Shown here: positions 1,610-63,740 of the stretch, piece by piece | Layout of the letters: every line of letters starts with the position of its first letter | Position numbering within the stretch: position 1 is the first letter of the stretch | NCBI RefSeq assembly: GCF_006861775.1 | Contig: NZ_VDGG01000004.1 | Coordinates: forward strand, 1 to 64,000 | Source: Psychrobacillus soli | GTDB lineage: Bacteria > Bacillota > Bacilli > Bacillales_A > Planococcaceae | Reading direction: 5' to 3' | DNA length: 64,000 bases | The notes under the pieces: model-generated | What the model saw: only the letters and a program-made list of their open reading frames with translations | The model's database searches: none | What the model was told of the DNA's origin: nothing | Translations under genes and position numbers: made by a program

Positions 1610-2202
1610 TTTTGGTTGCTTTGGCCGGGAAATTGGTTGCTCTCAGTGGCAAATTGATTGCTTTGGCAGCGGAACTGGTTGCTCACCCCGAGAAACTAGT
1701 TGCTTTCATCCTCATTTGGTTGCCCTAAGCCGTTTATTTCAAACTCTGCGTATTTCACAGTCAAGTTAACTCTTTATAAAGAGAATTGGTTGCTCTCGGT
1801 GGCAAATTGATTGCTTTGGCAGCGGAACTGGTTGCTCACCCCGAGAAACTGGTTGCTTTCATCCTCAATTGGTTGCCCTAATCCGTTTATTTCCAACTGT
1901 GCGTATTTCACATTCAAGTTAACTCTTCACAAAGAGAATTGGTTGCTCTCGGTGGTAAATTGATTGCTTTGGCAACGGAATTGGTTGCTCACCCCGAGAA
2001 ATTGGTTGCTTTCATCCTCATTTGGTTACCCTAAGCCGTTTATTTCCAATTGTTCGTATGTCACATTCAAGTTAACTCTTTACAAAGAGAATTGGTTGCT
2101 CTCCGTGACAAATTGGTTGCTTTGGCCACGGAACTGGTTGCTCACCCCGAGAAACTGGTTGCTTTCGTCCTCATTTGGTTGCCCTAAGCCATCTATTTCC
2201 AA
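1610..2202 (+). repeat. 21-bp-phased TTGGTTGCT array in four tandem 153-bp units
   Basis: The core AATTGGTTGCT (with small variations) starts at 1610, 1631, 1652, 1673, 1694 and 1714, then at 1784, 1805, 1826, 1847, 1867, then 1937, 1958, 1979, 2000, 2020, then 2090, 2111, 2132, 2153, 2173. Pitch inside a block is 21 bp, with 20 bp at the last step. Blocks repeat every 153 bp exactly (1631, 1784, 1937, 2090). About 10 bases between cores vary, but are kept between equivalent positions of successive 153-bp units. Each block ends TTGGTTGCCCTAAGCC followed by an approximately 70-bp spacer containing AGTTAACTCTT. The last unit runs into the pbpG stop codon at 2203. Confidence 0.95.
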
Positions 2203-4275
2203 TCATTCCCCAAAAAACGAAAACGGGAAAATAGACCATGGTGTTGTATCTTCATCTGATCCATCCTCGAATGTTTGTTGCTTCAAAGTTGGATCCGTGC
2301 ATAGTTTAGTTGGGACATCCTCCTCTTTTAAATAGACAAGTCGTTGTTTTTTACAAGCGGAAGTAGCAATACCTCCTGTTTCAATATCAACAATAACTCC
2401 GCGAACACCTGGAGGAGCGATGAATGGTTCTGACGGTAAACCTTGATGAGATTTCTCCATAAATTCAATCCACACTTGTTTCGTTACTTGTCTTGCCTCT
2501 GCTTCACTCACTTGTTTCCCTTGGTCATAGCCATTCCAAACTCCCGCAGTCAATTGAGGGGAGAAGCCGATTAAATATTGATCGGAAATGGTCGTTCCTG
2601 ATTTTGCTGCATATGGTCTTGTTTGCTTTGCGCGAATACTGATGCCAGTTGCAGGTGAGTAATCATTAAAAATTGGATCGAACATACCGGTTAGTAAATG
2701 AGATAGCAAGAATGCATCTTGTTCTAGCAACACTTTTTTATCTTTCCTTTTATCTTTCTCCAAGTCATAAAGCACTTTGCCATTATTATCGGTAATTTTC
2801 GTAATATAAGTTGGTTCTCTCAGGATTCCCTTTGCGGAAATCGCGTTATATGCTTTGGTCATGTCTAATAAAGAAGCCTCCGATGTACCGAGCGCTGTCG
2901 CCGGAGTATCGTCGACATCCATCTGAACATTGAATCTTTCAATCAGCTGCTCGAATGGCTTATACCCAATTTGTTCAAGCGTTTTAACAGCATAAATATT
3001 ATCCGAAATGGCAAGTGCTTGTGCCATCGATATCGGATGTTCCGCAAATTCACCGTTTACATTTTTCGGTTCATATTCTTGGCGCCCATTATCATACGTG
3101 AAAATAGTACGTTCACTTTTCATATATGTCAGGGGAGTGAATCCATTTTCTAAAGCGGAAGCAAACAATAAAGGTTTAATCGTTGAACCTGGTTGTCTTT
3201 TTGCTTGCGTTACGCGATTAAATGGACTTTCACTAAAATTACGACCGCCAACCATTGCTGTAACGTATCCCGTTTTCGGTTCTATACTAACAAAGCCAAT
3301 TTGTAACTCGCCTTCAGGCATCCACTTTTCAATAACTTCTTCAGCTACTTGTTGATGATTTCTGTTCAAAGTTGTTTCAATTGTCCATCCGCCATCTTCA
3401 ATTCGCCGACCCTTTTTCTGAATGATACTGGTTGCTTCTTTCCAAACCTCTTCTAAAAAGTAAGGAGCTGCTTTTTTCTTTACAAGCGAGTCTTCTGTTT
3501 TCAAGACATATTGCTCTTTCACAGCACGCTCTCGTTGTTCTGCAGTTATAAATTGTTGATTTTCCATTAATTTTAAAATAAGTTGTTGGCGGTTTACCGC
3601 TTTTTCTTCATCTGCTAAAGGTGAGTAATAAGTAGGTCCTTTTGGAATTCCCATCAATAAAGCGGATTCTGCAAGCGTTAAATCTTTTGCACTTTTTCCA
3701 AAATAATACCGGCTTGCGGCTTCTACACCGTACATGCCATGTCCGAAATAGACTGTATTCAAAAATCCTTCGAGCAATTCATCTTTTTCATAAAAAATTT
3801 CTAGCCGGTAAGCATACAAGGCTTCATTTATCTTCCGAGTCCAAGATTTTTCATGCGTCAAAAATAAATTTCGTGCGTATTGTTGGGTAATTGTACTTGC
3901 ACCTTCTACTTTTCGCATCGCCTTTATATCCTTTAAAAGTGCAGAAGCAATTCGCGTATAATCAAACCCATGATGCTCATAAAATTCCTGATCTTCTACA
4001 GCAATAATCGCTTGAGGCACGAATGGAGAAATGTCCTCTAGTGAAACCCAATAACGCCTCTGGTCTTCAAATCGATCACCAATTACATTTCCTTGGTCGT
4101 CTAAAAAGACGGAAGAAATAGGCACTTGAATAATAGGTGCACCAACGATTTGAGCGTAAACTCGGAGCGTTACAAGTGCACCAATCAAAGCAAAGCAAGC
4201 TACGATACTTAATAAAAAAACTCTTTTCATACGTTTAGATCGAGTGGTTTTCTTTCGGTATTGTACACGCCCCAT
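2203..4275 (-). CDS. pbpG: Bifunctional penicillin-binding protein, PBP2d-like (transglycosylase/transpeptidase)
   Basis: A class A PBP of 690 residues, near the length of B. subtilis PbpG (YwhE), which also lies between ywhD and speE. A basic cytoplasmic tail and one membrane anchor (about residues 17-41) are followed by the glycosyltransferase domain, with EDQEFYEHHG near residue 94 and GASTITQQ near 125. The transpeptidase domain has Ser-Thr-Ile-Lys at 364-367 (active-site Ser), Ser-Asp-Asn at 424-426 and Lys-Ser-Gly-Thr-Thr at about 558. It would polymerise and crosslink peptidoglycan outside the membrane; the B. subtilis gene acts in spore germ-cell-wall synthesis. The chosen ATG has GGAGGAG upstream. 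An internal ATG at 4230 is possible. Its stop codon lies at the edge of the repeat array, and no separate terminator is seen. Confidence 0.92.
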   Translation of the reverse strand: MGRVQYRKKTTRSKRMKRVFLLSIVACFALIGALVTLRVYAQIVGAPIIQVPISSVFLDDQGNVIGDRFEDQRRYWVSLEDISPFVPQAIIAVEDQEFYEHHGFDYTRIASALLKDIKAMRKVEGASTITQQYARNLFLTHEKSWTRKINEALYAYRLEIFYEKDELLEGFLNTVYFGHGMYGVEAASRYYFGKSAKDLTLAESALLMGIPKGPTYYSPLADEEKAVNRQQLILKLMENQQFITAEQRERAVKEQYVLKTEDSLVKKKAAPYFLEEVWKEATSIIQKKGRRIEDGGWTIETTLNRNHQQVAEEVIEKWMPEGELQIGFVSIEPKTGYVTAMVGGRNFSESPFNRVTQAKRQPGSTIKPLLFASALENGFTPLTYMKSERTIFTYDNGRQEYEPKNVNGEFAEHPISMAQALAISDNIYAVKTLEQIGYKPFEQLIERFNVQMDVDDTPATALGTSEASLLDMTKAYNAISAKGILREPTYITKITDNNGKVLYDLEKDKRKDKKVLLEQDAFLLSHLLTGMFDPIFNDYSPATGISIRAKQTRPYAAKSGTTISDQYLIGFSPQLTAGVWNGYDQGKQVSEAEARQVTKQVWIEFMEKSHQGLPSEPFIAPPGVRGVIVDIETGGIATSACKKQRLVYLKEEDVPTKLCTDPTLKQQTFEDGSDEDTTPWSIFPFSFFGE

Positions 4276-4356
4276 AAAAATCTCCTCCGTCCTGCTTGGA
4301 TGTTTTCATTAGTATGAGAACAATAGATTCAAATTAAACGGAAAAAGAAAAAAGTA

Positions 4357-4384
4357 TTGCACTTTTGTAAAAAAGCTCTATACT
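4357..4384 (+). promoter_or_regulatory. Candidate sigma-A promoter of speE-speB
   Basis: TTGCAC at 4357-4362 and TATACT at 4379-4384 with a 16-bp spacer, about 60 bp before the speE start. A second AT-rich candidate (TTGATACACTATATA) lies nearer the gene. Confidence 0.55.
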
Positions 4385-4444
4385 TTCTTTGTATTATTTT
4401 TTTGATACACTATATACAAACGTATTCACAAAGGAGATAGATAG

Positions 4445-5278
4445 ATGAGCGGATTTTGGTTTACTGAAAAACAAACCGAGAATTTTGGAATTACGATGAA
4501 GGTAAAACGTACACTTCATACGGAGCAAACAGATTTTCAACTATTAGAAATGGCAGAAACAGAAGAGTGGGGGAATATGCTCTTTTTAGACGGCATGGTC
4601 ATGACGTCTCAAAAAGATGAGTTCGTATACCATGAAATGGTAGCGCACGTTCCTTTATTCACTCACCCAAACCCGGAAAACGTATTAGTTGTTGGTGGCG
4701 GAGATGGTGGCGTAATTCGTGAAATTATGAAGCATCCGAAAGTTAAAAAAGCAACTCTTGTTGATATAGATGGGAAAGTTATTGAGTATTCGAAAATATA
4801 TTTACCAGAAATTGCATGTGAATTAGAAAATCCACGTGTCGATGTACAAGTAGGCGACGGTTTCATGCATATTGCTGAATCTGAGAACGAATACGATGTA
4901 ATCATGGTAGATTCAACAGAACCAGTAGGTCCAGCGGTTAACTTATTTACTAAAGGTTTCTATGCTGGGATTTCAAAAGCTTTGAAAGAAGATGGATTAT
5001 TCGTTGCACAATCGGACAACCCTTGGTTCAAAGCGGACTTAATCCGACAAGTACAAAAAGACGTGAAAGAGATTTTCCCTATTACAAATATGTACTTAGC
5101 GAATATTCCTACGTATCCAAGTGGACTTTGGTGCTTTACAATTGGATCGAAAAAATACGATCCACTTCAAGTTCCTGACGAGCAGTTCCATGAAATTGAC
5201 ACAAAATATTACACAAAAGAGCTTCACAAAGCAGCATTCGTATTGCCTAAATTTGTGAAGGACTTAGCAGGAGAGTAA
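4445..5278 (+). CDS. speE: Spermidine synthase (putrescine aminopropyltransferase)
   Basis: A 277-residue aminopropyltransferase that transfers the aminopropyl group of decarboxylated S-adenosylmethionine to putrescine. The nucleotide-binding loop [12 protein letters not shown] and the catalytic-loop [10 protein letters not shown] are intact, as is the early HEM motif (residues about 64-66). The start follows AAAGGAGATAG. speB begins 4 bp after the stop codon, so the two are translated from one message. The order pbpG-speE-speB is as in B. subtilis. Cytoplasmic. Confidence 0.95.
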
Positions 5279-5282
5279 GCCG

Positions 5283-6155
5283 ATGCGATTTGATGAAGCT
5301 TATTCAGGAAATGTATTTATTAAAAGCAAGCAAAATTACGAAGAAGCGCAAGCAGTTATTTATGGGATGCCAATGGACTGGACAGTAAGCTACCGTCCAG
5401 GTTCACGCTTTGGCCCGCAGCGTATTCGTGAAGTATCGATTGGTCTAGAGGAGTATAGCCCGTACTTAGACCGTGAGCTAGATGATGTAAATTATTTTGA
5501 TGCAGGAGACATTCCACTTCCTTTTGGAAATGCATCGAAAAGTTTAGATTTAATCGCAGGATTTATTCGCCAGTTAATGCAAGACGGAAAAATTCCGGTC
5601 GGCATGGGCGGAGAGCATTTAGTGTCATGGCCGGTTATGAAAACAGTGGCAGACAACTATAAGGACCTAGCAATCATTCATATGGATGCGCATACGGATT
5701 TACGTGTGGAATATGAGGGAGAGCCACTTTCTCACTCGACGCCAATTCGTAAAATTGCCGAATACATCGGTCCGAAAAACGTTTATTCATTTGGAATCCG
5801 TTCTGGAATGAAAGAAGAGTTCGATTGGGCAAAAGAAAATGGCATGCATATTTCAAAATTTGAAGTATTAGAACCATTAAAAGAAGTACTGCCAACACTC
5901 GAAGGTCGTCCTGTCTATGTCACGATTGATATTGACGTGTTAGACCCTGCACATGCACCAGGTACTGGAACAGTAGATTGTGGTGGAATTACAAGCCGCG
6001 AGCTACTAGCTTCTATCCATGCGATTGCAAGTTCAGGCGTAAATGTAGTAGGATTCGATTTAGTAGAAGTTGCACCGATTTACGATTCATCGGAGCAAAC
6101 AGCTAATACTGCATCGAAGCTACTAAGAGAAATGATTCTAGGCTGGGTGAAATAG
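5283..6155 (+). CDS. speB: Agmatinase
   Basis: A 290-residue ureohydrolase converting agmatine to putrescine and urea, supplying the substrate of SpeE. Manganese-ligand motifs are visible in order: GGEH, DAHTDLR and DIDVLDPAHAPGTG. The start codon is 4 bp after speE, with AGGAGAG at the end of speE as ribosome binding site. The last 18 or so codons are repeated twice downstream (see the duplication entry). The frame used here ends at the first stop, TAG at 6153. Confidence 0.95.
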   Translation: MRFDEAYSGNVFIKSKQNYEEAQAVIYGMPMDWTVSYRPGSRFGPQRIREVSIGLEEYSPYLDRELDDVNYFDAGDIPLPFGNASKSLDLIAGFIRQLMQDGKIPVGMGGEHLVSWPVMKTVADNYKDLAIIHMDAHTDLRVEYEGEPLSHSTPIRKIAEYIGPKNVYSFGIRSGMKEEFDWAKENGMHISKFEVLEPLKEVLPTLEGRPVYVTIDIDVLDPAHAPGTGTVDCGGITSRELLASIHAIASSGVNVVGFDLVEVAPIYDSSEQTANTASKLLREMILGWVK

Positions 6156-6359
6156 AAAGCGAATATTTAATGTTACTGCGACGAGCTTGCGCAGGAGCAA
6201 ACAGCAAACACTGCATCGAAGCTACTAAGAGAAATGATTCTAGGCTGGGTGAAATAGAAAGCGAATATTAAATGTTACTGCGACGAGCTTGCGCAGGAGC
6301 AAACAGCTAATACTGCTTCAAAGCTACTACGTGAAATGATTTTGGGCTGGGTAAAATAA
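6092..6359 (+). repeat. Three tandem 102-bp repeats of the speB 3' end
   Basis: GGAGCAAAC begins copies at 6092, 6194 and 6296, each running through the codons for QTANTASKLLREMILGWVK and a stop (6153 TAG, 6255 TAG, 6357 TAA). Copies 1 and 2 differ by two bases within this segment. Copy 3 differs from them at several codon third positions and in the stop codon yet encodes the same peptide. The linker between copies (AAAGCGAATATT..GCTTGCGCA, 38 bp) is repeated twice. Copies 2 and 3 have no start codon and are non-coding remnants. Confidence 0.95.
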
Positions 6360-6363
6360 TTTG

Positions 6364-6398
6364 GAAACGTGATGTCCTTTTTAGGGCATCACGTTTTT
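6364..6398 (+). terminator. Rho-independent terminator of speE-speB
   Basis: AACGTGATGTCC pairs with GGGCATCACGTT around a TTTTTA loop and is followed by a run of T. It follows the third speB tail copy directly, suggesting that copy 3 was the original gene end. Confidence 0.9.
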
Positions 6399-6419
6399 TT
6401 AGGTTTTGCTTATGTTTAG

Positions 6420-6449
6420 TTGTCATTCACACGCTTTTAGCTTTATAAT
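6420..6449 (+). promoter_or_regulatory. Candidate sigma-A promoter of ywiB-argS
   Basis: TTGTCA at 6420 and a perfect TATAAT at 6444-6449, spacer 18 bp, about 170 bp before the ywiB start codon chosen here. Confidence 0.6.
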
Positions 6450-6499
6450 AAAAAGGTTATATTAATAAGACTCAGTTGGAGAAACACTGAATCTTATTA

Positions 6500-6600
6500 A
6501 TAATGCCTCCGGCGGATGTCACAGATTTTGAGAGGAGTGAATTGTGCAAGCACAATTCAAAATCTGGACGCAATTACGCCAAGGCGAAATTGATAAAAAA
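6500..6600. repeat. Hairpin-forming intergenic repeat before ywiB
   Basis: CAGATTTT and AAAATCTG form an outer stem, and GAATTGTG and CACAATTC an inner stem around 6523-6580, flanked by GCCTCCGGCG and ACGCCAAGGCG. The CTAAGGCGAATTAGAT end of the pyrG leader (about 43475) resembles its 3' edge. I believe this kind of element is common in related genomes, but that is memory, not shown here. It explains why the ywiB frame is open upstream of the real start. Confidence 0.55.
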
Positions 6601-6619
6601 TGTGTTAAGGATGAACGCA

Positions 6620-7039
6620 ATGTCTCAACCAATAAAAAAAACAGTCACTGTCCGCTTATTATCCACGATTAAACATCCCGATACTGCAGCAGAAACTTTC
6701 GACATACAAACGACAGGTGAACTAACGATAAAAGGGGAACAACCTTATTTAGTTTACGAAGAAATGCAAAATGAAAAAACGGTCAAAACTACCGTCAAGT
6801 TAAATAGTGATTCTGCTTTAATTCTCCGAAGTGGTGGAGTAAAAATGAGACTGCCATTCGTACAAGGAGAACGTCAAACAGGAAGCTATGATCCAGGGTA
6901 TGGCGTAATGATGATCACTACAAATACGAAGCAACTCAATTTCGAAGATGGTCATTTCCGAGTGGAGTATGAACTCTTAATAAATGAAGAAATTGCAGGT
7001 ACATATACATTAGAACTAATTTACACGGAGGCGGATTAA
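6620..7039 (+). CDS. ywiB: YwiB family protein (DUF1934), function unknown
   Basis: A 139-residue beta-rich protein of the DUF1934/YwiB family. In B. subtilis it also directly precedes argS. The start is taken as the ATG of Met-Ser-Gln-Pro, with AAGGA eight bases upstream. A longer frame opens at 6503, but its extra 39 residues are encoded by the hairpin repeat and are unlikely to be translated. argS begins at the base after its stop codon, so they share one message. Lipocalin-like folds are known in the family, but no function is established. Confidence 0.85.
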   Translation: MSQPIKKTVTVRLLSTIKHPDTAAETFDIQTTGELTIKGEQPYLVYEEMQNEKTVKTTVKLNSDSALILRSGGVKMRLPFVQGERQTGSYDPGYGVMMITTNTKQLNFEDGHFRVEYELLINEEIAGTYTLELIYTEAD

Positions 7040-8707
7040 ATGAACGCAGTAGAAAAAGTGCAACAATCGATCAAAACAGCGTTGCAACAAGCAATTGTAA
7101 AGGCAGAATTAGTAGCAGAAGAACAGATTCCAGCTATCCATTTAGAAACACCGAAAGATAAAGCAAATGGGGACTACGCAACAAATATTGCAATGCAACT
7201 AACAAAGCTTGCGAAAAAAAATCCTCGTCAAATTGCGGATTCGATCGTTGAAAACTTAGATATGGCAGGCACGATGATGGAAAAAATCGATATCGCCGGT
7301 CCAGGGTTTATGAATATTACAGTGCGTAAAGATTATTTACAAGAAGTAATTAAAGCAGTACTTACGGAACAAGCCGATTATGGTCGTACAAAATCAGGTG
7401 CTGGTGAAAAAGTTCAAGTCGAGTTCGTATCTGCAAATCCAACGGGTGACTTGCATTTAGGTCATGCTCGCGGTGCATCTGTAGGGGATTCTTTATGTAA
7501 TGTACTTGATTTTGCAGGCTTCGATGTAGCACGTGAATATTATATTAATGATGCTGGTAACCAAATCCACAACTTAGCGGTGTCTATTGAAGTTCGCTAT
7601 TTTGAAGCATTAGGTTTAGAGAAAGAAATGCCGGAAGACGGATATCGCGGGCAAGATATTATCGATATTGCAGCGGATCTTGTAAAAGAGCATGGTGATA
7701 AATTTGTTCAAATGTCAGACGAAGAGCGCTACAAAGCATTCCGTGCACATGGTTTAAAAGTAGAACTTGCGAAATTACAAAAAGACTTAGCGGATTTCCG
7801 TGTAGGCTTTGATAATTGGTTCTCTGAAACTTCTTTATACGAAGATGGAAAAATTGAAGTAGCACTAGACAAATTAAAAGCAAATGGCCATATTTTCGAA
7901 GAAGAAGGAGCTACTTGGTTCCGTTCTACAACATTTGGCGATGACAAAGATCGTGTATTGATCAAAAGCGACGGCTCTTTCACGTATTTATTACCAGACA
8001 TTGCTTACCATGAAGATAAATTAGTACGTGGCTTCGACCAACTGATTAATATTTGGGGAGCAGACCACCACGGATATATCCCACGTATGAAAGCGGCAAT
8101 TGAAGCACTTGGGTACGAGCGTGAGAAACTTGAAGTATCTGTGATTCAAATGGTGCAGTTATATAAAGACGGCGAAAAAATGAAAATGAGTAAACGTACT
8201 GGTAAAGCAGTTACGATGCGTGAACTTGTAGAGGAAGTAGGGTTAGACGCAGTTCGTTATTTCTTCGGTATGCGTTCAGGCGATTCCCATATGGACTTCG
8301 ATTTAGACTTGGCTGTCTCTCAGTCGAATGAAAACCCAGTGTACTATGCACAATATGCACATGCACGTATTTGTTCGATTTTACGTTCAGCTGAAACGCA
8401 AGAGCTAAAAACATCAACAGATTCACTGGAATTATTGCAAAGTGAAAAAGAATTAGACTTATTGAAAAAAATTGGTGACTTCCCACAAGTCGTAGCAGAT
8501 GCTGCAAAACTTCGTGCACCTCACCGTGTCGCAACTTATATCCAAGAGCTTGCTGCAACATTCCACAGTTTCTATAATGCGGATAAAGTACTCGATACAG
8601 ACAACGTCGCTCTAACTGGCGCTCGTCTAGCATTAGTAACATCGGCTCGCCAAACAATCGCGAATGCCCTTCGTTTAATCGGTGTAGCCGCTCCGGAAAA
8701 AATGTAA
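7040..8707 (+). CDS. argS: Arginyl-tRNA synthetase
   Basis: A class I aminoacyl-tRNA synthetase of 555 residues, the usual Bacillus length. The HIGH-type motif reads HLGH (within [13 protein letters not shown]), the KMSKS-type motif reads KMSKR, and the N-terminal Arg-tRNA domain and C-terminal DALR anticodon domain are complete. GGAGGCGGA at the end of ywiB serves as ribosome binding site. No T-box leader is visible. A strong terminator follows. Confidence 0.96.
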
Positions 8708-8712
8708 TATGG

Positions 8713-8742
8713 AACACTTCGACCACGGTCGGAGTGTTTTTT
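8713..8742 (+). terminator. Rho-independent terminator of argS
   Basis: AACACTTCGACC pairs with GGTCGGAGTGTT around AC, followed by T residues. Confidence 0.9.
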
Positions 8743-8860
8743 GATGGAAAAAAGTGTTTTGTTGGAAAAATTCATGTTTTAGTTGGAATTCTCGGATGTT
8801 TAGTTGGAATTTTAGAGCATTTAGTTGGAAAAATGGACGCCTTAGTTGGAAAACGCTACT
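8743..8860 (+). repeat. 21-bp-phased array with a variant core (TTAGTTGGAA)
   Basis: GTTGGA starts at 8761, 8782, 8803, 8824 and 8845, exactly 21 bp apart, with a weaker GATGGA at 8743. The ten or so bases between cores are variable. Pitch, length and placement immediately after a terminator match the TTGGTTGCT arrays, but the core differs (AGTTGGAA instead of TTGGTTGCT). It lies before the promoter of the B12 operon. Confidence 0.85.
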
Positions 8861-8892
8861 TTTTCCCATAATTGGTGCTAAAAAAATCCCTG

Positions 8893-8920
8893 TCGACAAC
8901 AATGCCATTTCATGTATAAT
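8893..8920 (+). promoter_or_regulatory. Candidate sigma-A promoter of the cobalamin operon
   Basis: TCGACA at 8893 and TATAAT at 8915-8920 with a 16-bp spacer, about 30 bp before the riboswitch. Confidence 0.6.
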
Positions 8921-8950
8921 TAAATCGATGCATGCAAAATATTTCGAAAA

Positions 8951-9138
8951 TAAAGGTGCTTGCTACTAACCTAGCAAGTTAAAAGGGAAGCTGGTTCAAA
9001 TCCAGCACGGTCCCGCCACTGTAAATGATAGAACACTATCATAAGTCAGAAAACCTGCCTTTATGTGAAAACACTTTTATGCCTACGAGGATAGGTTACG
9101 TGTGAGTCGGCTTGGCATATTGCAAACCTAGCAGATTT
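8951..9138 (+). ncRNA. Cobalamin (B12) riboswitch
   Basis: Conserved elements appear in the expected order: AAAGGTGCTTGC, GGGAAGCTGGTTCAAATCC, CACGGTCCCGCCACTGTAA and the B12-box-like AAGTCAGAAAACCTGCC, closing with AACCTAGCAGA. The aptamer would bind adenosylcobalamin and repress the downstream salvage and uptake operon. The terminator at 9150 is the expected expression platform. Confidence 0.95.
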
Positions 9139-9149
9139 ATACCTATTCT

Positions 9150-9179
9150 ATCTCTCGTTCATTGGACGAGAGATTTTTA
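9150..9179 (+). terminator. Riboswitch-controlled intrinsic terminator
   Basis: A perfect 9-bp stem (ATCTCTCGT with ACGAGAGAT, loop TCATTGG) followed by five T, lying between aptamer and first gene. It implies transcription attenuation when B12 is abundant. Confidence 0.85.
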
Positions 9180-9206
9180 ATTGCACAAAAAATGGGGGAA
9201 AAGAAC

Positions 9207-11169: not shown

Positions 11170-11170
11170 T

Positions 11171-19391: not shown

Positions 19392-19424
19392 AAAAGGGCT
19401 ATCTCACATAGAGGTAGCCCTTTT
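19392..19424 (+). terminator. Rho-independent terminator of the cobalamin operon
   Basis: AAAAGGGCTA and TAGCCCTTTT form a perfect 10-bp stem. The T-tail TTTTAGTTGCT doubles as the first core of the repeat array. Confidence 0.9.
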
Positions 19425-19522
19425 AGTTGCTCTTGTTGCGAAATTGGTTGCTTTCACGCAAAATTCTGTTGCTTATCGGGAGAAAATGGTTGCTTTCGTG
19501 ACCAAGTTGGTTTCCCTTAGCC
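19421..19522 (+). repeat. 21-bp-phased TTGGTTGCT array
   Basis: GTTGCT begins at 19426, 19447, 19468 and 19489, and a terminal GTTTCCCTTAGCC at 19510, all exactly 21 bp apart. The first core overlaps the terminator tail. The closing unit matches the end sequence of other arrays (TTGGTTGCCCTAAGCC). The following 180 bp, to the first operator-like palindrome, is very AT-rich without a gene. Confidence 0.9.
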
Positions 19523-36951: not shown

Positions 36952-36970
36952 AGAAATTTCCTGTAAATGG

Positions 36971-37068
36971 TTAAGGGCAACCAAATCAGCAGCGAAAGCA
37001 ATCAATTCACATCTAAGAGCAACCAACTAAGAATCGAAAGCAACCAAATCATATAGAAGAGCAACCAA
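36971..37068 (-). repeat. 21-bp-phased GCAACCAA array between two acyl-CoA dehydrogenase genes
   Basis: GCAA cores start at 36977, 36998, 37019, 37040 and 37061, exactly 21 bp apart. Read on the minus strand it closes with TTGGTTGCCCTTAACC, matching the end sequence of other arrays. It fills most of the gap between two co-directional genes, and no terminator hairpin is visible here. Confidence 0.9.
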
Positions 37069-42204: not shown

Positions 42205-42425
42205 AGTCAGCAATTTCCATTGATTTTCGATGCAGGTGGCGACTCCAGTGGAGGCCAACAGGATGTTGGTCACAAAGGCGCTGCCACACGATGTGGCGTT
42301 TTTAGCCTTTGATCCTCTGTGTGAGTAAGATGAGACTTCACAACGTACGCGCAAGCGGCGGTGAAGGCTCATCACTCACCCCACGGAAAGCGTCTGCCTG
42401 CAGCGTAAATCCTGGTGGCAACAAG
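42205..42425. repeat. Dispersed intergenic repeat element, copy B, with internal hairpins
   Basis: It starts AGCAATTTCCATTGATTTTC and ends CCTGCAGCGTAAATCC, sharing GGCGACTCCAGTGG, GAGACTTCACAACG and CTCACCCCACGGAAAGCG with copy A. Its terminal segments are imperfectly complementary. An insert absent from copy A (about 42256-42330) contains further stems: GGCCAACA/TGTTGGTC, AAAGGC..GCCTTT and GCCACA..TGTGGC. Such nested hairpins suggest a structured RNA or a folding mobile element. No coding frame. Confidence 0.8.
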
Positions 42426-45108: not shown

Positions 45109-45117
45109 TATAAAAGA

Positions 45118-45146
45118 AGCAGTTCGACAACGTCGAGCTGCTTTTT
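45118..45146 (+). terminator. Rho-independent terminator of pyrG
   Basis: AGCAGTTCGAC pairs with GTCGAGCTGCT, followed by T residues. Confidence 0.9.
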
Positions 45147-45171
45147 TAGTGTGGATAAAGGGAATAATTGG

Positions 45172-46155
45172 CTAAAAGCAACCAAATCCGGTGGGAAAGC
45201 AACCAAACCGCCAGGCAGAGCAACCAGTTCACCATCGAAAGCAACCAATTGGAACGGGAGAGCAACCAAAGCGTATAGAACTAACTACTCTCTGAATGAA
45301 TATCGAAAATGAATACACAAATTGGAAATAAATAGTTAAGAGCAATCAAATCAAGCATGGGAGCAATCAAATCCATAGCGAGAGCAACCAAACCACCAGA
45401 CAGAGCAACCAGTTCAGCAGCGAGAGCAACCAATTGAAACGGGAGAGCAACCAAAGCGTATAGAACTAACTACTCTCTGAATGAACATCGGAATAAAGAC
45501 ACAAATTGGAAGTAAATAGCTAAGAGCAATCAAATCAAGCATGGAAGCAATCAAATCCATAGCGAGAGCAACCAAATCGCCAGGCAGAGCAACCAGTTCA
45601 GCAGCGAGAGCAACCAATTGGAACGGGAGAGCAACCAAAACTACTCTCTGAATGAATATCGAAAATGAAGATAATAATTGGAAAAAATAGCTAAGAGCAA
45701 TCAAATCAAGCATGGAAGCAATCAAATCCATAACGAGAGCAACCAAATCGCCAGGCAGAGCAACCAGTTCAGCTTCGAGAGCAACCAGTTGGAACGTGAG
45801 AGCAACCAAACATATATAACTAACTACTCACTGAATGAATAGCGAAAATGAATACATAAATTGGAAATGAATAGCTAAGAGCAACTAAATCAAGCATGGA
45901 AGCAATTAAATTCATAGAAAGAGCAACCAAATCGCCAGGCAGAGCAACCAGTTCAGCTCTGAGAGCAACCAAACAGTATAGAACTAACTACAATCTGAAT
46001 GAACACCAAAAATGAAAACACAAATTGGAAATAAATAGCTAAGAGCAATCAAATCAAGCATGAAAGCAATCAAATCCATAACGAAAGCAACCAAATCGCC
46101 AGGCAGAGCAACCAGTTCACCATCGAAAGCAACCAATTAGAAAGCCAAAGTATCC
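45172..46155 (-). repeat. Large 21-bp-phased GCAACCAA array in six clusters
   Basis: Cores (GCAACCAA and close variants, the complement of TTGGTTGC) start at 45178, 45199, 45220, 45241, 45262; 45342 to 45447; 45526 to 45631; 45697 to 45802; 45881 to 45965; and 46045 to 46129, with a degenerate GTATCC at 46150. Every step within a cluster is exactly 21 bp: 33 good cores plus one weak. Clusters recur every 164-184 bp, separated by spacers that share CTCTGAATGAA and AATTGGAAATAAATAGCTAAGA. The array fills the gap between two convergent genes. The spacer lengths are not multiples of three. Confidence 0.95.
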
Positions 46156-46156
46156 A

Positions 46157-46190
46157 AACAAAAAAACACCCAAAGAAATTTCTTTGGGCG
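46157..46190 (-). terminator. Rho-independent terminator of the DUF2529 gene
   Basis: On the minus strand CGCCCAAAGAAA pairs with TTTCTTTGGGTG and is followed by T residues. Confidence 0.85.
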
Positions 46191-46202
46191 TTTCCAATAA
46201 AA

Positions 46203-52730: not shown

Positions 52731-52740
52731 AATAAAATAG

Positions 52741-52769: not shown

Positions 52770-52799
52770 ATTTAACGTAACATCATACATTTCTGCTAC

Positions 52800-52885
52800 A
52801 TATGCGATTGACATCAATCGGATCGTGTAAGGTATCAGTTTTCATAACCAACTCTGTTCCAGATGGTTCAGGGCGAGAGGAGAGA
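52800..52885 (+). promoter_or_regulatory. rpmE: Structured leader of rpmE, candidate L31 autoregulatory element
   Basis: CGATTGA and TCAATCG form a tight stem near 52806-52821. AACTCTGTTCCAGATGGTT could form a second stem just before GGCGAGAGGAGAG. Leaders that bind L31 have been described in Firmicutes. The match here is by position and structure only. Confidence 0.4.
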
Positions 52886-52890
52886 TAGAG

Positions 52891-53106: not shown

Positions 53107-53113
53107 GCACCAA

Positions 53114-54005: not shown

Positions 54006-54011
54006 CATTCC

Positions 54012-54040
54012 AAAAGAGTAGCTAAAGCTGCTCTTTTTTT
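54012..54040 (+). terminator. Rho-independent terminator of tdk
   Basis: AAAAGAGTAGC pairs with GCTGCTCTTTT (loop TAAA), followed by T residues. Confidence 0.88.
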
Positions 54041-54087
54041 ATTACAGTTTTGTTACTGGTGCCTGGCACCAGTAACAAAACTGTAAT
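54041..54087. repeat. Perfect 47-bp palindrome
   Basis: Two 23-bp arms, beginning ATTACAGTTTTGTTACTGG and meeting at GGTGCC-T-GGCACC (centre T at 54064), are exactly complementary. It lies directly after the tdk terminator with no T-run of its own. GGTGCC-T-GGCACC palindromes occur as dispersed elements in some bacilli as far as I recall. Confidence 0.9.
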
Positions 54088-54172
54088 AAATCGATGATAG
54101 AAAAAGTAGCGGGAACGATGTTTTTTCTTTATAATAGGAATGATATAGACTTAAACGAACGAGGTGAGGTCG

Positions 54173-56102: not shown

Positions 56103-56146
56103 GTTATGAATCTATTGGTAACAATGTTCCTAAGGGGGAATGTTAC

Positions 56147-56680: not shown

Positions 56681-56748
56681 CTATCCACAAAATTCAGAAA
56701 GTTACCAACAAATTGTGGACAAAGTAGAGAGAAAGGAGAAAATACGAC

Positions 56749-57777: not shown

Positions 57778-58344
57778 GCACTGTAATAACATACTAGGTA
57801 CTTTATGTATAGGTGCTTTTGGAGAGCTTTTTTTCCGATAATCGTGTGTTAGTCGTTCGTCCGTCGTTCTCCAAAGGCACAGATAATCAAAATGCCAAAG
57901 CTTTTTGGAACGAGAGAATAGTCACTTTCCTATCTAGATAAAAGCAGCCAAAGATGCAATTTTGGCTGCTCAGTCCTTCTCTATAATATTTCCACCTTTT
58001 CGATTGGAAGGAAATGTCCCTTTTTAATATAGTGTCACCATATTGCTAGCGTTCACTTTTCAAAAATAAGTAAGGAACGCATGATAGAAAGTGTTAGAGC
58101 ACCTGAAATTGCATCTTCAGGTGCTTCCTTTTTGAGTTGGAAAGCATCTTTTCACTCATTATCCAAAAAGGTTTTAACCTTATTCGTACTGTTGAAGGAG
58201 GGCGACGACCAGCCTCCCTAAAAAATCAAACGGTAATAATATAGCAATAATTCTGTCCAAATACCTCCGAAAACGATACGAAACAGGTTTTGTACTTAGA
58301 GGGTGCTTGCGCTTTTGTTAGCCGAGTGTATTCTCTTCCATTCT
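57778..58344. other. Gene-free 600-bp region with several hairpins
   Basis: No convincing coding frame on either strand. Notable hairpins: AGCAGCCAAA/TTTGGCTGCT at 57943-57970 and AGCACCTGAA/TTCAGGTGCT at 58098-58125. Their 8-base loops (GATGCAAT and ATTGCATC) are exact reverse complements. The second is followed by TCCTTTTT and could terminate transcription. GGAGG..CCTCC at about 58196-58218 is a weaker stem. An undetected small RNA is possible. Confidence 0.5.
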
Positions 58345-58368
58345 TTTGCATACATTTAATTATGCAAA
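58345..58368. promoter_or_regulatory. Inverted repeat before mntP
   Basis: TTTGCATA and TATGCAAA are perfect arms around CATTTAAT, ending 18 bp before the start codon. Its position fits an operator or a leader hairpin blocking the GGGGGAG ribosome binding site region. Confidence 0.5.
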
Positions 58369-58386
58369 CGGACGGGGGAGATTTTT

Positions 58387-58890
58387 TTGTGGCGTGAGAT
58401 TGTAGCGGGTGCATTAATGTCAGTTGATGTGCTGATTTTGTTTTCACTCGTATTATATCGGAAGCAAATTTTCACATTGGCAGCGTGGGTGGCATCTTTA
58501 CATATGCTTTTTCCTTTAATCGGCTATTATGCAGGGGCAATTATGCAAAGTTATTTGCAATATGCAAGCCCATATTTATCTGGATTTTTGCTGTCGCTTG
58601 TTGGATTACAAATGATTCTAGCAAGGTCACCTAAACAAGTGCCTCTACTTTCACCTTACTTACTAGCAGTAGTTGCAAGTATTGACACCTTTTCAGTAAG
58701 TATTTCATTTGGTATGCTTAGAGTAGAAAAATTTCTATTCATATTAAGTTCAGGTATATTCTCCTATCTAGCTGTATTTATTGCGCAGAAAGTGATTTTC
58801 AAACATGCTTTTTTGAACCGAGGACTTATTATGAAGCTGGCGGGAGTCGCTATTTTATTAATAGGGATTATAACTTTACGAAATATTTAA
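58387..58890 (+). CDS. mntP: MntP-family putative manganese efflux pump (YwlD)
   Basis: 167 residues with about six membrane helices. SVDVLILFSLVL in helix 1 and SIDTFSVSISFGM in the second half carry the two Asp residues typical of MntP. TTG start after GGGGGAGATTTT. Occupies the ywlD position between ywlC and ywlE. Confidence 0.82.
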   Translation: MWREIVAGALMSVDVLILFSLVLYRKQIFTLAAWVASLHMLFPLIGYYAGAIMQSYLQYASPYLSGFLLSLVGLQMILARSPKQVPLLSPYLLAVVASIDTFSVSISFGMLRVEKFLFILSSGIFSYLAVFIAQKVIFKHAFLNRGLIMKLAGVAILLIGIITLRNI

Positions 58891-58949
58891 CAAATGAACA
58901 CATTATAATTAGACTATTTATTATATACTAGAGATGAGGAAATGTAACT

Positions 58950-59390
58950 ATGAATATTTTGTTTGTTTGTACGGGAAATACTTGTCGAAGTCCAATGGCA
59001 GAGGCGATATTAAAGGACCGAAATTTGGAAAATATAAACGTCCGTTCAGCAGGTATTTATGCGACGGATGGAGGAGAAATGTCTCTAAATGGGCAAAAAG
59101 TCTTAAAAAAAGAAAACATATCTTTTACGCATGAATCAGCTGCATTAAAAGAATCGCTAGTGGATTGGGCGGATCTTGTTCTCACCATGACAGCATCTCA
59201 TAAGCAAGCAATTATTTATGCATTTCCGCAAGCTATTTCCAAAGTATATATGTACAAAGAATTTGTGACACCTGAAAACATGCAGGATGTATCGGATCCA
59301 TATGGTGGCAATTTACGTACATATGAACACACGTTTCTAGAACTGCACACACTTACAGACGGACTAGTGAAAAAACTCCAGGGGGATTAG
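58950..59390 (+). CDS. ywlE: Protein-arginine phosphatase (YwlE, low-molecular-weight PTP fold)
   Basis: 146 residues. The signature loop [13 protein letters not shown] has the nucleophilic Cys and, as in YwlE, Thr after the GN, which favours phosphoarginine over phosphotyrosine. DPYGG supplies the general acid Asp. It reverses McsB arginine phosphorylation. Followed after 1 bp by a chemoreceptor gene. Confidence 0.9.
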
Positions 59391-59391
59391 G

Positions 59392-60699
59392 ATGAAGACA
59401 GAAAAAAAGCGGTACTCATTTGGAATTCAAAAAAAGATTGTTTTATTTGTAACGGTTTTAGCATTAGTTACATACACAACGAGTGCGGTGTTTATCAATT
59501 TTATACAGCCGCTTATATTTGAAAATACAACGAAATCGCTTAACTTCGAAATTGGCATGTATGCATTAGGGATCTTCTGGTCTGGGCTACTTGCATATTT
59601 TTTCAGTGGATTAATTATTAAGCCATTATTTAATTTGGAAAAAGTAGCGACCCTTGCCTCAGAAGGTAAAATTGGTGTAGATGTGGAAGTACCAAAATCG
59701 AAAGATGAAATCCAATCTGTTTCTATCGCATTTCAATCAATGCTTGTCAATTTAAGAGAAATGGTTCAAAGCATTGAAGATAACTTTGAAAAAACAAATA
59801 ATACCGTGCAACAATTATCGCAACAATCTTCCGTTGCTTCCGAACAGGCAGAAGCGATTGCACAAACGATTGCACAAATTTCCGAAGGTGCTGAACACTC
59901 AGCCATCGCAGTTCAAGAAACAGTGGAATCTGTAGAAGATGTACGAGTACTAGCTTCTGAAGTAAATATGCGTGCAGAAAAATCAAACGTACAGTCCGGG
60001 GAAATGATCCGTGGTTTAGCGCAAACAACGGAAGTCATTCAATCCCTTGTAAATGGTATTCAGCAAGTTGCTTCTGGAAGCGAAGCGGCTTTAGTAAATG
60101 TAAAACAGCTAGAAGTAAACGCCGGGAAAGTGGAAAATATTATTCAACTAGTCGGCGATATTGCAGCTCAAACGAATTTACTTGCATTAAATGCATCCAT
60201 AGAAGCTGCTCGTGCTGGAGAACACGGAAAAGGTTTTGCGGTCGTAGCGGAAGAAGTGCGTAAACTAGCAGATGAAAGTGGCAAAGCGGTGCAAGGAATT
60301 TCAGCATTAATCATTGCTATTCAAACAGATGTCCAAACGGTTGTCCATCAAATGACGAATCAAGTAAACTTTGCAGTAGGGGAAGCAAAACGTGTTTCTG
60401 AAACGAATGAAGCGGTAGAAGGGATGTCACATAAAATCCATGATATGGCGGAATCCGTTGTACAAATTTCTTCATTAGTTGAAAATCAATTAACGAATAT
60501 CGAAAATACAGCACGTCAATCCCAAGAAGTAGCTGCCATTGCGGAAGAAACATCTGCAGGAGCAGAAGAAGTGAGAAGTGCAACAGATGAACAAGCACGA
60601 TCAATCGAACAAATTGATCGCTTATCGTTCGGATTAAAGCGACAATCGGAAGAATTATTTAAAGTTATTTCGCAATTTGACAGAAATTCGTCAAAATAG
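59392..60699 (+). CDS. Methyl-accepting chemotaxis-like protein with short extracellular part
   Basis: 435 residues. Two membrane helices (about 16-37 and 53-76) with only about 15 residues between, HAMP-like segment (75-130), then a long coiled-coil signalling domain with the conserved tip [36 protein letters not shown]. Lack of a sensory domain suggests it senses membrane or cytoplasmic cues. Start 1 bp after ywlE, CAGGGGGATTAGG upstream. Confidence 0.9.
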
Positions 60700-60710
60700 A
60701 GCTTTAAAAT

Positions 60711-60742
60711 GCAATTCACTTTACGTGAATTGTATTTTTTTT
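60711..60742 (+). terminator. Rho-independent terminator after the chemoreceptor gene
   Basis: GCAATTCAC and GTGAATTGT form a stem (loop TTTAC) followed by about nine T. Confidence 0.85.
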
Positions 60743-60796
60743 TGCGGATAAATGGTATGATGAATGGGAGTACTAAAACAGAAAAGAGGGAACAAA

Positions 60797-61234
60797 TTGA
60801 AAATTGCAATTTCTTCTGATCACGGTGGAAATAATCTTCGCAAGGAAATTATGCTACAACTAGAGGAGCTCGGACTTTCTTATGAAGACTTTGGTCCAAC
60901 GAGTGACGATTCTGTTGACTATCCTGACTATGCAATGCCAGTTACAGAAGGTGTAGTAAGTGGGAAGTTTGATCGTGGTATTTTAATTTGTGGTACAGGC
61001 ATTGGTATGTCAATCGCGGCAAACAAAGTAAAAGGTATTAGATGTGCATTAGTACATGATGTATTTTCGGCAAAAGCAACAAGATGCCATAATGACTCAA
61101 ATGTACTTGCAATGGGAGAACGAGTAATAGGTCCAGGACTTGCAAGAGAAATCGTTGCAACTTGGCTTGCACAAGATTTTGAAGGTGGACGTCACACACG
61201 TCGAGTAGAAAAAATTACAGCACTAGAAAACTGA
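60797..61234 (+). CDS. rpiB: Ribose-5-phosphate isomerase B
   Basis: 145 residues, RpiB/LacAB family: SSDHGGNNLR at the N-terminus, YPDYA, CGTGIGMSIAANK with the catalytic Cys, and RCHNDSN. TTG start after AAGAGGGAAC; a frame from 60764 overlaps the probable ribosome binding site. B. subtilis ywlF position. Confidence 0.92.
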   Translation: MKIAISSDHGGNNLRKEIMLQLEELGLSYEDFGPTSDDSVDYPDYAMPVTEGVVSGKFDRGILICGTGIGMSIAANKVKGIRCALVHDVFSAKATRCHNDSNVLAMGERVIGPGLAREIVATWLAQDFEGGRHTRRVEKITALEN

Positions 61235-61252
61235 GGAAGAAGGGATTTTCAG

Positions 61253-61798
61253 ATGGAAGCAAAAGATTTGTGGAAACAGCAAATAGAACAGCTTCTCCTG
61301 GAAGTGGAGCAGCAAATCCAACTGCATGAAGATGATCTTTTTGTTATTGGCTGTTCAACCTCAGAAATTATCGGTGAAAAGATTGGAACGGCTGGTGGTT
61401 TAGAAGTAGCCGAGGTTTTATTTGGACCATTCCAAGCCTTTGCTGAGCGTAACAAAGTGCATGTAGCTTTTCAAGGATGCGAGCATATTAACCGCGCCCT
61501 TACAATGGAAAGAAAAACGCAAAAGCTGTATCGATACCCGGAAGTTTCGGTTATTCCGGTTGTTCGTGCAGGTGGCTCCATGTCTGCACACGCGTACACG
61601 CAATTCCAAGACCCAGTCGTAGTCGAGCATGTCCAAGCGCGTGCCGGCATTGATATAGGACAAACCCTTATTGGGATGCAGTTGCAACCTGTAGCTGTCC
61701 CAATTCGCGTGTCCACAAAACAAATTGGGGAAGCAGTCGTGACGATTGCAAACACACGTCCGAAACTAATTGGTGGAGAACGTGCATTTTACGGTTGA
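61253..61798 (+). CDS. ywlG: YwlG family protein (DUF436/TIGR01440), function unknown
   Basis: 181 residues. VIGCSTSEIIGEKIGTAG, FQGCEHINRALTMER and VVRAGGSMSAHAY are characteristic of the family. Conserved next to rpiB and glyA in bacilli. No established activity. It starts 18 bp after rpiB. Confidence 0.88.
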   Translation: MEAKDLWKQQIEQLLLEVEQQIQLHEDDLFVIGCSTSEIIGEKIGTAGGLEVAEVLFGPFQAFAERNKVHVAFQGCEHINRALTMERKTQKLYRYPEVSVIPVVRAGGSMSAHAYTQFQDPVVVEHVQARAGIDIGQTLIGMQLQPVAVPIRVSTKQIGEAVVTIANTRPKLIGGERAFYG

Positions 61799-61819
61799 TA
61801 TTAGAGGAGGAAATGAGAA

Positions 61820-63055
61820 ATGGAGAAAATTTTAACACAAGATCCAGCAGTATACGAAGCGATGCTGGCGGAGAAAAAGCGTCAACAAACAAATATCGAG
61901 TTAATCGCATCTGAAAACTTTGTATCCGAAGCAGTAATGGAAGCACAAGGTTCAGTGCTTACAAATAAATACGCAGAAGGCTACCCAGGTAAACGCTACT
62001 ATGGTGGTTGTGAGCATGTAGACGTTGTAGAAAATATTGCTCGTGATCGTCTGAAAGAAATTTTCGGAGCAGAACATGCAAACGTACAACCCCATTCAGG
62101 TTCACAAGCGAACATGGCGGTTTACATGACTGCTTTACAACCAGGTGACACGATTTTAGGGATGAACTTGTCACATGGTGGGCATTTAACACATGGTTCC
62201 CCTGTAAACTTTAGTGGAATTCAATATAACTTTATCGAGTACGGTGTGGATAAAGAAAACGAAACAATCGACTATGAAGATGTTCGTGCAAAAGCATTAG
62301 AACATAAACCAAAAATGATCGTTGCTGGAGCAAGTGCATACTCACGAGTAATTGATTTCGCTAAATTCCGTGAAATCGCAGACGAAATTGGAGCATACCT
62401 ATTTGTAGACATGGCTCATATTGCAGGATTAGTTGCTGCAGGTCTTCATCCAAATCCAGTGCCACACGCACATTTCGTTACATCAACAACGCATAAAACA
62501 TTACGTGGACCACGTGGTGGATTAATCCTTACAACTGAAGAATTCGCGAAGAAAATTGACAAAACAATTTTCCCTGGAATCCAAGGTGGTCCATTAATGC
62601 ACGTTATCGCTGCAAAAGCAGTTGCATTTGGAGAAGCACAACAACCTGAATTTAAGGAATACCAAGCACAAGTGATCGCAAATGCTAAGACACTAGCAGA
62701 TAGCTTAGTAGCAGAAGGTCTTCGCATCGTATCTGGTGGTACGGATAACCACGTAATGCTAGTAGACGTATCAGCAATTGACTTAACAGGTAAAATTGCA
62801 GAACACGTCCTTGACGAAGTTGGAATTACAGTAAACAAAAATACAATTCCATATGAAACACAAAGTCCATTTATTACTTCAGGAGTTCGTCTAGGAACAC
62901 CAGCAGTAACTTCTCGTGGATTTAAAGAAGAAGAAATGAAAGAAATCGCTTCGATCATTGCGAAACTTTTGAAAAACCATGAAGACGCAGAAGTGATCCA
63001 AGAAGCAAAAGACAGAGTCGCTGCTTTAACTGATAAACTCCCATTGTATAACTAA
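61820..63055 (+). CDS. glyA: Serine hydroxymethyltransferase
   Basis: 411 residues, PLP enzyme. Schiff-base Lys in [29 protein letters not shown] and [10 protein letters not shown] present. Interconverts serine and glycine with tetrahydrofolate. AGAGGAGGAAATGAG precedes the ATG. Confidence 0.97.
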
Positions 63056-63073
63056 TACAAAATTTGAAAGTAG

Positions 63074-63106
63074 GCTACCTTTTTGGAGAAAGGTAGCTTA
63101 TTTTTT
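63074..63106 (+). terminator. Rho-independent terminator of glyA
   Basis: GCTACCTTT and AAAGGTAGC form a perfect 9-bp stem, followed by TTATTTTTT. Confidence 0.9.
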
Positions 63107-63113
63107 ATGCTTT

Positions 63114-63275
63114 AGGAAATATTTGTAGTTAATGCGTCACAGTCATAGGCGTCTCACTTCAAGTAAACTTGCTATTTTAAGAATTGATTGCTTTCATCGG
63201 CAAATTGGTTGCTCTCAGTACTGGTTTGGTTGCTTTCGGAATAGAATTGATTGCTTTCCATGACCGATTGGTTGC
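63114..63275 (+). repeat. Direct repeat R1 containing a 21-bp-phased array
   Basis: Cores (ATTGCT/GTTGCT) start at 63187, 63208, 63229, 63250 and, as GTTGCC of the terminal unit CCCTAATCC, at 63271, all 21 bp apart. The whole 162-bp segment, including about 70 bp of unique text before the array, is repeated almost perfectly 364 bp downstream. Confidence 0.93.
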
Positions 63276-63295
63276 CCTAATCCATTTACTGGTTT

Positions 63296-63470
63296 CCGTG
63301 CGGCGGTGAAGGCTCATCGCTCACCCCACGGAAAGCGTCCGCCCTGCAGCGGAAATCCCAGCGGATACTTCATTTAGCTCATTAAGGTGCAGTATCTCTA
63401 TTATGTTCGACATTCCATTCATCGTTTCCGCTTGCCATATAGGTTAGAGACAGTCGCTTGCGCTTTTTTT
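63296..63470. repeat. Dispersed intergenic repeat element, copy C
   Basis: GCGGTGAAGGCTCATCGCTC, CACCCCACGGAAAGCG and CCCTGCAGCGGAAATCCCAG match the right half of copies A and B, and the flank CATTCCATTCATCG matches copy A. The left half of the element is missing. It sits between direct repeats R1 and R2. Confidence 0.82.
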
Positions 63471-63477
63471 GCGTTTA

Positions 63478-63639
63478 AGGAAATATTTGGAGTTAATGCG
63501 TCACAGTCATAGGCGTCTCACTTCAAGTAAACTTGCTATTTTAAGAATTGATTGCTTTCATCGGCAAATTGGTTGCTCTCAGTACTGGTTTGGTTGCTTT
63601 CGGAATAGAATTGATTGCTTTCCATGACCGATTGGTTGC
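63478..63639 (+). repeat. Direct repeat R2 containing a 21-bp-phased array
   Basis: Near-identical to R1 at an offset of exactly 364 bp; cores start at 63551, 63572, 63593, 63614 and 63635. The closing unit reads GTTGCTCTTAGCC, slightly different from R1. Confidence 0.93.
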
Positions 63640-63740
63640 TCTTAGCCATATTCTGGATTACTAACAATGAAAAGCTGCATCGTATTAGGATTTAAAACGG
63701 TGGTGCCGATAACCTCATACTTTATTCAGTGTAGATATTA

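Follow-up and report, generated by a model that had tools for sequence, protein, structure and literature searches.

Arrays of short intergenic words at a 21-bp pitch in Psychrobacillus soli and its relatives

Short repeated DNA words outside genes are known from several systems. Repetitive extragenic palindromic (REP) sequences and bacterial interspersed mosaic elements (BIMEs) have an imperfect palindrome or stem-loop as their unit and a cognate REP-associated transposase, miniature inverted-repeat transposable elements (MITEs) carry terminal inverted repeats and a target-site duplication, plasmid iterons and the ParR/TubR centromere repeats lie head to tail beside rep or par genes, and the Sal boxes of eukaryotic ribosomal DNA (rDNA) are tandem sites for the protein TTF-I. 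The DNA uptake sequence (DUS) of the Neisseriaceae is bound by an uptake receptor and raises transformation. Its dialects have a CTG core in common, and their copies run into the thousands, some of them in inverted pairs (PMC3630211). Here we describe intergenic arrays in a 64,000-nucleotide stretch of Psychrobacillus soli (contig NZ_VDGG01000004.1, positions 1 to 64,000; the window), in which the word GCAACCAA (core A), given on the opposite strand as TTGGTTGC in an initial annotation of the window, is repeated every 21 bp. The chances seem to us evenly balanced that these arrays are phased binding platforms for a predicted sequence-specific DNA-binding protein at the ends of transcription units. 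Other genomes and stretches are denoted by G and L numbers.

The 21-bp pitch stood far above chance. The window held 56 pairs of cores 21 bp apart (at most two mismatches), compared with 0.01 on average over 100 dinucleotide shuffles, and the whole genome held 520 such pairs, compared with 4 for a reversed-pattern control, so that the pitch on which the initial annotation was built is indeed enriched. Distances were then tabulated in a genome sample of 60 stretches, most of them picked around listed matches, together with the window (1.20 Mb in total). The core-to-core distance was 21 bp in 292 cases, 20 bp in 40 and 22 bp in 3, with every other distance from 12 to 33 bp seen at most 3 times. 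The core-pair matches in this sample, 319 in all, were spread over many gaps. Repeated 8-mers in its 231 kb of intergenic DNA gave the same picture, with 612 cases at a distance of 21, 40 at 20 and about 10 at most others, and with 57–222 cases near 42 and 63, the multiples of 21. Three words in phase at 21 bp were found in 60 regions, and at every other period from 12 to 39 in at most two. Stretches of 11 further Psychrobacillus genomes were fetched for synteny, plus one stretch each from G003 and G005 that was chosen for its array; in the stretches of the 11 genomes, 21 was the sole recurring period, and other periods were one-offs (16 in G017, 22 in G011, 20 in G004 and 18 in G018).

The arrays of the window and the sequences that adjoin them are as follows.

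1–60, + strand: 3' end of a further module, cut by the window edge (match at 13–41), then the long-element tail AGCAAGTTTACTTG
1558–1605, no strand assigned: terminator hairpin abutting the 1612–2182 array, seen by eye also in the gaps of 8 other species
1612–2182, − strand: core A array of 21 units in 4 blocks of 5–6, with steps of 21 bp, and 20 bp at a block end
1725–1740, − strand: leader of the last block of this array, GAAATAAACGGCTTAG as read on the − strand, compared by eye
8713–8742, no strand assigned: terminator hairpin adjoining the core B array, by eye
8758–8851, − strand: core B array, with the variant core TTCCAACTAA, 5 units at 21-bp pitch
19393–19424, no strand assigned: terminator hairpin that runs into the 19423–19514 array
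19423–19514, − strand: core A array of 5 units, a script-found chain
36960–36976, + strand: leader CCTGTAAATGGTTAAGG before the 36977–37068 array; G017 and G015 have a similar leader in their orthologous gap
36977–37068, + strand: core A array of 5 units, occupying most of a 150-bp gap between co-directional genes
45117–45148, + strand: terminator of the upstream gene, ahead of the 45178–46157 array
45160–45177, + strand: leader GGGAATAATTGGCTAAAA of the 45178–46157 array
45178–46157, + strand: core A array of 34 units in 6 blocks, in a convergent gap past a guaA-like gene
46167–46190, no strand assigned: terminator of the converging gene, past the 45178–46157 array
63184–63296, − strand: core A array of 6 units, including a leader unit, within a long dispersed element
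63548–63639, − strand: 5-unit core A array in a second copy of the long element, its array part nearly identical to 63184–63276

Every array position in the initial annotation was recovered as a script-found chain, the fragment at 1–60 being the cut end of one more. Its reading of the steps was also accurate: 57 of 61 were 21 bp, and the other four, all at ends of blocks in the 1612–2182 array, were 20 bp. Its core of 11 bp was real but too short, since the conserved part of the unit is longer, roughly GARAGCAACCAAWT, with some 6–7 loosely constrained bases besides. The most frequent block had five units, both among local blocks (27 of 46) and among those of the long element (28 of 59). Clusters of five made up 10 of 10 in G008, and clusters in other genomes ranged from 3 to 8 units. 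Blocks within one gap recur at periods such as 153 and 184, which are not whole helix turns.

The initial annotation had missed that many copies lie within a longer dispersed repeat, whose inner ends carry an inverted pair, GAATCCAGTAAA and TTTACTTGGA. A search that used just the leader and the tail gave 49 copies, with spans of 124 (16 copies), 125 (8), 103–105 (5), 83 (4), 62 (3), 46–47 (7) and six single values, a distribution indicating that arrays shrink mostly by unit steps. Part of the spread of arrays in this genome is copying of an array-bearing longer repeat. This bears on the main rival explanation, in which the arrays are selfish or passively copied short repeats, REP- or MITE-like, whose words are subfamilies and whose shared places are 3' gaps that tolerate insertion. 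Such copying certainly contributes here by way of the long element, with its near-identical copies at 63184 and 63548; the copy number is also patchy across genus and family, divergent gaps rarely hold arrays, and linkers common to different loci of local arrays were slightly above chance (17 pairs, whereas 30 shuffles gave 6.2 on average and never more than 14). However, this linker sharing is small and partly due to missed long elements or duplicated blocks. In addition, the core is more conserved than the linker. In elements found by leader and tail, and so without use of the core, which avoids circularity, core columns scored 0.903 and linker columns 0.814 in 16 copies (p=0.0014), and 0.878 and 0.803 in 8 copies (p=0.02). 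The long element, with window 63100–63320 as the query, had no match among plasmid or phage records. Copying also leaves aside that one gap may hold a similar leader and a different word in several species, and that the pitch is unchanged in the three further words of a single genome. As a full account of the arrays we consider it possible, though clearly the less likely one. A GC-rich dispersed repeat around GGCTCATCGCTCACCCCACGGAAAGCG adjoins long-element copies in the window (270–420 and 63300–63480) and lies upstream of several elsewhere.

The arrays were unevenly placed with respect to genes. Among gaps of at least 150 bp in the window and the syntenic regions of the 11 genomes, an array was present in 18 of the 43 that separate convergent genes, in 22 of the 188 between tandem genes and in 3 of the 49 between divergent ones (p=4.7e-5 for convergent versus divergent), giving the comparison with transcription-unit ends that the initial annotation had called for; the two arrays after 63055 are outside this count because no gene closes the gap there. 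The initial annotation had also linked the arrays to terminators, which is correct as to location in the cases looked at; any terminating or insulating activity is putative. One array elsewhere (L094, 15581–15671) lies about 150 bp past the 3' end of a 5S rRNA gene, the last gene of an rRNA operon.

The preference for convergent gaps would also be expected of a topological element, in which about ten phased turns wrap gyrase or another DNA-bending protein at the supercoils of converging transcription and the word hardly matters. The modules are about 105 bp long, and in a post hoc comparison the A+T component at 10.5 bp exceeded the 21-bp component in 12 of 13 motif sets. This 10.5-bp rhythm is no more than suggestive, agreeing with helical phasing and with a gyrase-like anisotropy. 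However, the 10.5-bp component was often not the largest, many arrays lie in tandem gaps, and the repetition of one word throughout a genome is left unexplained; a purely topological role is therefore unlikely.

Within tandem gaps of the selected stretches, core A arrays (long and local copies pooled) were sense in 14 cases and antisense in 19. That arrays run in either direction favours a role at the level of DNA over one at the level of RNA. An RNA element of the 3' untranslated region, offering binding sites in the transcript and related to Rho or RNase, would suit the several arrays that abut terminators, those directly past a stop codon, and the one that lies between co-directional genes. 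It fits poorly with the orientation counts and with words that span A/C-rich to G/A-rich composition, and conserved RNA structure was rejected when the alifold consensus of 50 copies gave an energy of 0.0 on either strand (gappy alignment). We rate an RNA-level element as more doubtful than a topological one. Rho sites (PMC12350095) were set aside because the array words vary too widely in composition.

Rfam models gave three matches at gathering scores in the window, none of them over an array, and none over the arrays in six stretches scanned; within 1374–2210 there were sub-threshold matches only, at the terminator. The three are a Cobalamin riboswitch (8937–9076), a Bacillaceae-1 RNA (42255–42321) and an L31 leader (52852–52882). 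A Bacillaceae-1 RNA was also seen about 235 bp beyond an array in L097. Window positions 1415–1605 are noncoding and end in a terminator, and are, by eye, strongly conserved in the corresponding gap of 8 other Psychrobacillus genomes; this segment, with no credible Rfam match, may be a small RNA. A further repeat of the window, at 6092–6358, is a tandem repeat of 102 bp in 2.6 copies that are 92% alike.

Since 21 is a multiple of 3, the arrays might also be what is left of genes that encoded heptapeptide repeats (21 bp being 7 codons) or the product of plain minisatellite slippage, and units are indeed lost in steps of about 21 bp and blocks duplicated in tandem. The initial annotation had argued that the arrays are not a reading frame, and for G130 a frame is excluded: its unit steps alternate between 21 and 20 bp, a spacing that stays close to two helix turns and disrupts the frame. 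A 20-bp unit is also present in many copies in P. soli. Of 87 arrays, 11 had no open frame of the six and 62 had just one or two. Moreover, linkers differ between units, and other periods are nearly absent. We regard coding remnants or slippage as very improbable.

The arrays often occupy the same places in sister species. Gaps were paired between the window and the 11 other genomes by their flanking proteins. For 18 gaps of 100–2500 bp, the orthologous gap had an array in 14 of 28 comparisons at gaps with an array in P. soli and in 1 of 79 at gaps without; the corresponding Fisher value of 4e-9 is overstated because the species are related. In the guaA-like gap (45109–46202), P. soli and 7 of 10 other species have arrays, most of which sit between two back-to-back terminators. 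The words there, compared by eye, are GCAACCAA in G005, a mixture of this with GAGACCAA in G003 and G008, and mostly GAGACCAA in G015, and those of G017, G014 and G011 differ from all of these. In this gap, leaders like GGAAATAAATGGC.AAG are common to arrays of different words. At the gap 8708–9161, arrays are present here and in 4 of 5 others, and the word of P. soli is in none of those four. In the gap after 36951, compared on plus-strand rows only, G017 has a similar leader and then GCGACAAA units at 21 bp, and G015 has the leader and then degenerate units, which the gap-matching count scored as array-less.

Words change within the genome as well. Nine of the 60 phased regions had no chain of three GCAACCAA cores; they comprise TTCCAACTAA arrays at three places, AATCGCAAGAT arrays at three, a GGTTATGTGG array at one, a degenerate core A array (L158) and one remaining region (L102). 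A fourth AATCGCAAGAT place was found in a separate listing of chains. The same 21-bp pitch is thus used in one genome by three unrelated words besides core A. Over 19 genomes of the genus, pairs of GCAACCAA (at most one mismatch) numbered 305 in P. soli, 287, 86, 80, 27, 13 and 12 in six others, and 0–3 in the rest. In the stretches of the 11 further genomes, mostly syntenic to the window, other words at 21 bp were ACGAGAGAGA in G012 and G014, GCAAGTAAA in G014, GCAAGGTT in G002, GCGACAAA and CGCTCCTAA in G017, TTATGGG and TTGTCGTAAAA in G011, and TTCGACCGATT in G003 and G015; GAGACCAA was mixed with GCAACCAA in G003, G008 and G015. The initial annotation had defined the family by AATTGGTTGCT, a definition that does not survive, as species have different cores and so do the array families of a single genome; what is often kept is the pitch, the module of about five units, the leader and the places.

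Words that differ between relatives might be a signal by which own DNA is recognised or taken up, with a dialect for each species as Neisseriaceae have. The words of relatives can be close (GCAACCAA, GAGACCAA and GCGACAAA) and are mixed in G003, G008 and G015, and DUS are likewise associated with terminators (PMC3630211). Against this, the dialects have no invariant core, and the words form phased tandem arrays, not thousands of separate sites, making an uptake signal quite improbable. The mixed-word genomes are possible intermediates in a change of word.

Arrays extend beyond the genus. In the related Planococcaceae to which the initial annotation had pointed, 81 of 242 genomes, representing 13 of 19 genera, had four-unit arrays of the form GCAAnnAA (at most two mismatches). 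The reversed control matched in about 19 of the 242, mostly a few times, but 84 times in G022, and some of the family matches are single ones, which may have arisen by chance or lie in coding sequence; G071, judged by eye, is one such case. Class-wide, at one mismatch or fewer, 11 of 259 genomes matched, five within the family and six outside it. Three of the latter (G429, G446 and G493, from two other families) have what appear to be true intergenic arrays, with the words GCAAGTAAA and GCAATTAA; the match in G399 is by eye a coding repeat, and the other two are G267 and G419. A contig-wide scan returned 62 stretches, from Psychrobacillus and Bacillus sp. FJAT-22090, with scattered matches in other phyla. 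Prevotella sp. UBA3837 and a Bacteroidales bin repeatedly showed triples of GCAACCAA at 21 bp (L033, L034, L059, L066, L070, L086, L088, L089 and L091), which may be coding or convergent. In L275 (1242–1673, from G100), two neighbouring 21-bp arrays have the unrelated words GAGTGATCATAGAA and CCGCAAGTAAA.

The phased protein-binding array put forward in the initial annotation remains the best reading, in which the protein and any insulating or terminating activity are inferred. The proposed sequence of events is as follows. The module would consist of a leader, or unit zero, which in the genus reads ...ATAAATGGC.AAG, and then about five head-to-tail sites at 21 bp, all of them predicted to lie on one face of the helix across about ten turns. 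The predicted protein would bind these sites cooperatively, starting at the leader, to form a short filament. Placed at the ends of transcription units, chiefly between convergent genes and beside their terminators, the filament could serve as a boundary or as a roadblock, holding back read-through and polymerases that would otherwise collide. The pitch, module size, places, word change and stronger conservation of core than of linker are observed; the equal two-turn spacing, defined start, usual number of sites, conserved addresses and largely genome-uniform words fit a cooperative, sequence-specific DNA-binding protein. As the word changes between species, and the arrays in the same gap change with it, binder and sites would co-evolve.

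Several points weigh against this binding platform. With all non-divergent gaps compared to divergent ones, the placement gave only p=0.051. Genes were taken as open reading frames of at least 100 amino acids, with no curated annotation; the window was given for its arrays, and supplies 5 of the 43 array gaps; and the cross-species counts are not independent. In several motif sets the strongest harmonic was other than 10.5 bp. The uniformity of the word within a genome could stem from copying. No array-binding protein is known, and no protein family search was made. The stretches fetched from G004 and G018 had no 21-bp array and those from G002 only one, and the array system is thus probably dispensable. 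Finally, arrays diverge fast. In G005 and G013, whose stretches are 92–95% identical, the arrays of the guaA-like gap have different numbers of blocks and different linkers in their upstream units, with the last two units still recognisable; at a second locus there is a clean loss of 21 bp and a 3-bp difference.

Weighing these points, we give even credence to an undescribed class of chromosomal element in Bacillales, with about five sites over ten turns, whose gaps are held and whose word is rewritten in each species. It would imply that a DNA-binding protein, or a family of them, with one geometry and many specificities co-evolves with the sites, perhaps driven by conflict. The initial annotation knew of no described family like it, and we recognised no description in searches of an open-access library aimed at such arrays, which does not cover subscription papers and preprints. 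An element of constant geometry, module size and address but changing sequence evades ordinary motif searches, and a common feature of these genomes, occupying 18 of 43 convergent gaps of at least 150 bp, may therefore have gone unnoticed. It offers a natural experiment in the shift of a recognition code at many sites, and bears on how neighbouring transcription units are separated in Gram-positive chromosomes.

How the arrays stand to known systems can now be set out. A protein-coding tandem repeat has a constant frame, which the 21/20 alternation in G130 and the 20-bp units break, and a known Rfam RNA would give a curated-model match over arrays, of which the window and six stretches had none. 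REP sequences and BIMEs are, like the arrays, extragenic, present in many copies, concentrated at 3' ends and in convergent gaps, and divided into species-specific families; the arrays share their avoidance of divergent, promoter-bearing gaps (3 of 49, compared with 18 of 43 and 22 of 188, though only p=0.051 for non-divergent versus divergent). For the stem-loop unit of REP sequences no counterpart was seen: no palindrome or stem was found in 50 copies (alifold 0.0 on a gappy alignment), and the units are asymmetric, strict 21-bp direct repeats, about five together. As regards MITEs, an inverted pair was seen in the long element, at its inner ends. Plasmid iterons and the ParR/TubR centromere repeats resemble the arrays in being head-to-tail repeats at about 20–22 bp, or some two helix turns, with about five per set; they are confined to a single site or a few sites next to rep or par genes, whereas the arrays occupy many chromosomal gaps (520 pairs). 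The Sal boxes bound by TTF-I are, like the arrays, tandem protein sites past gene ends with a fast-changing recognition word, but are eukaryotic and confined to one type of locus, and the binder of the arrays is only predicted. Finally, DUS (PMC3630211) share with the arrays a short abundant word, dialects that differ among relatives, the presence of two dialects in a single genome and an association with terminators; the words of the arrays, such as GCAACCAA, ACGAGAGAGA and CGCTCCTAA, differ from DUS in having no common core and in standing in phased tandem arrays.

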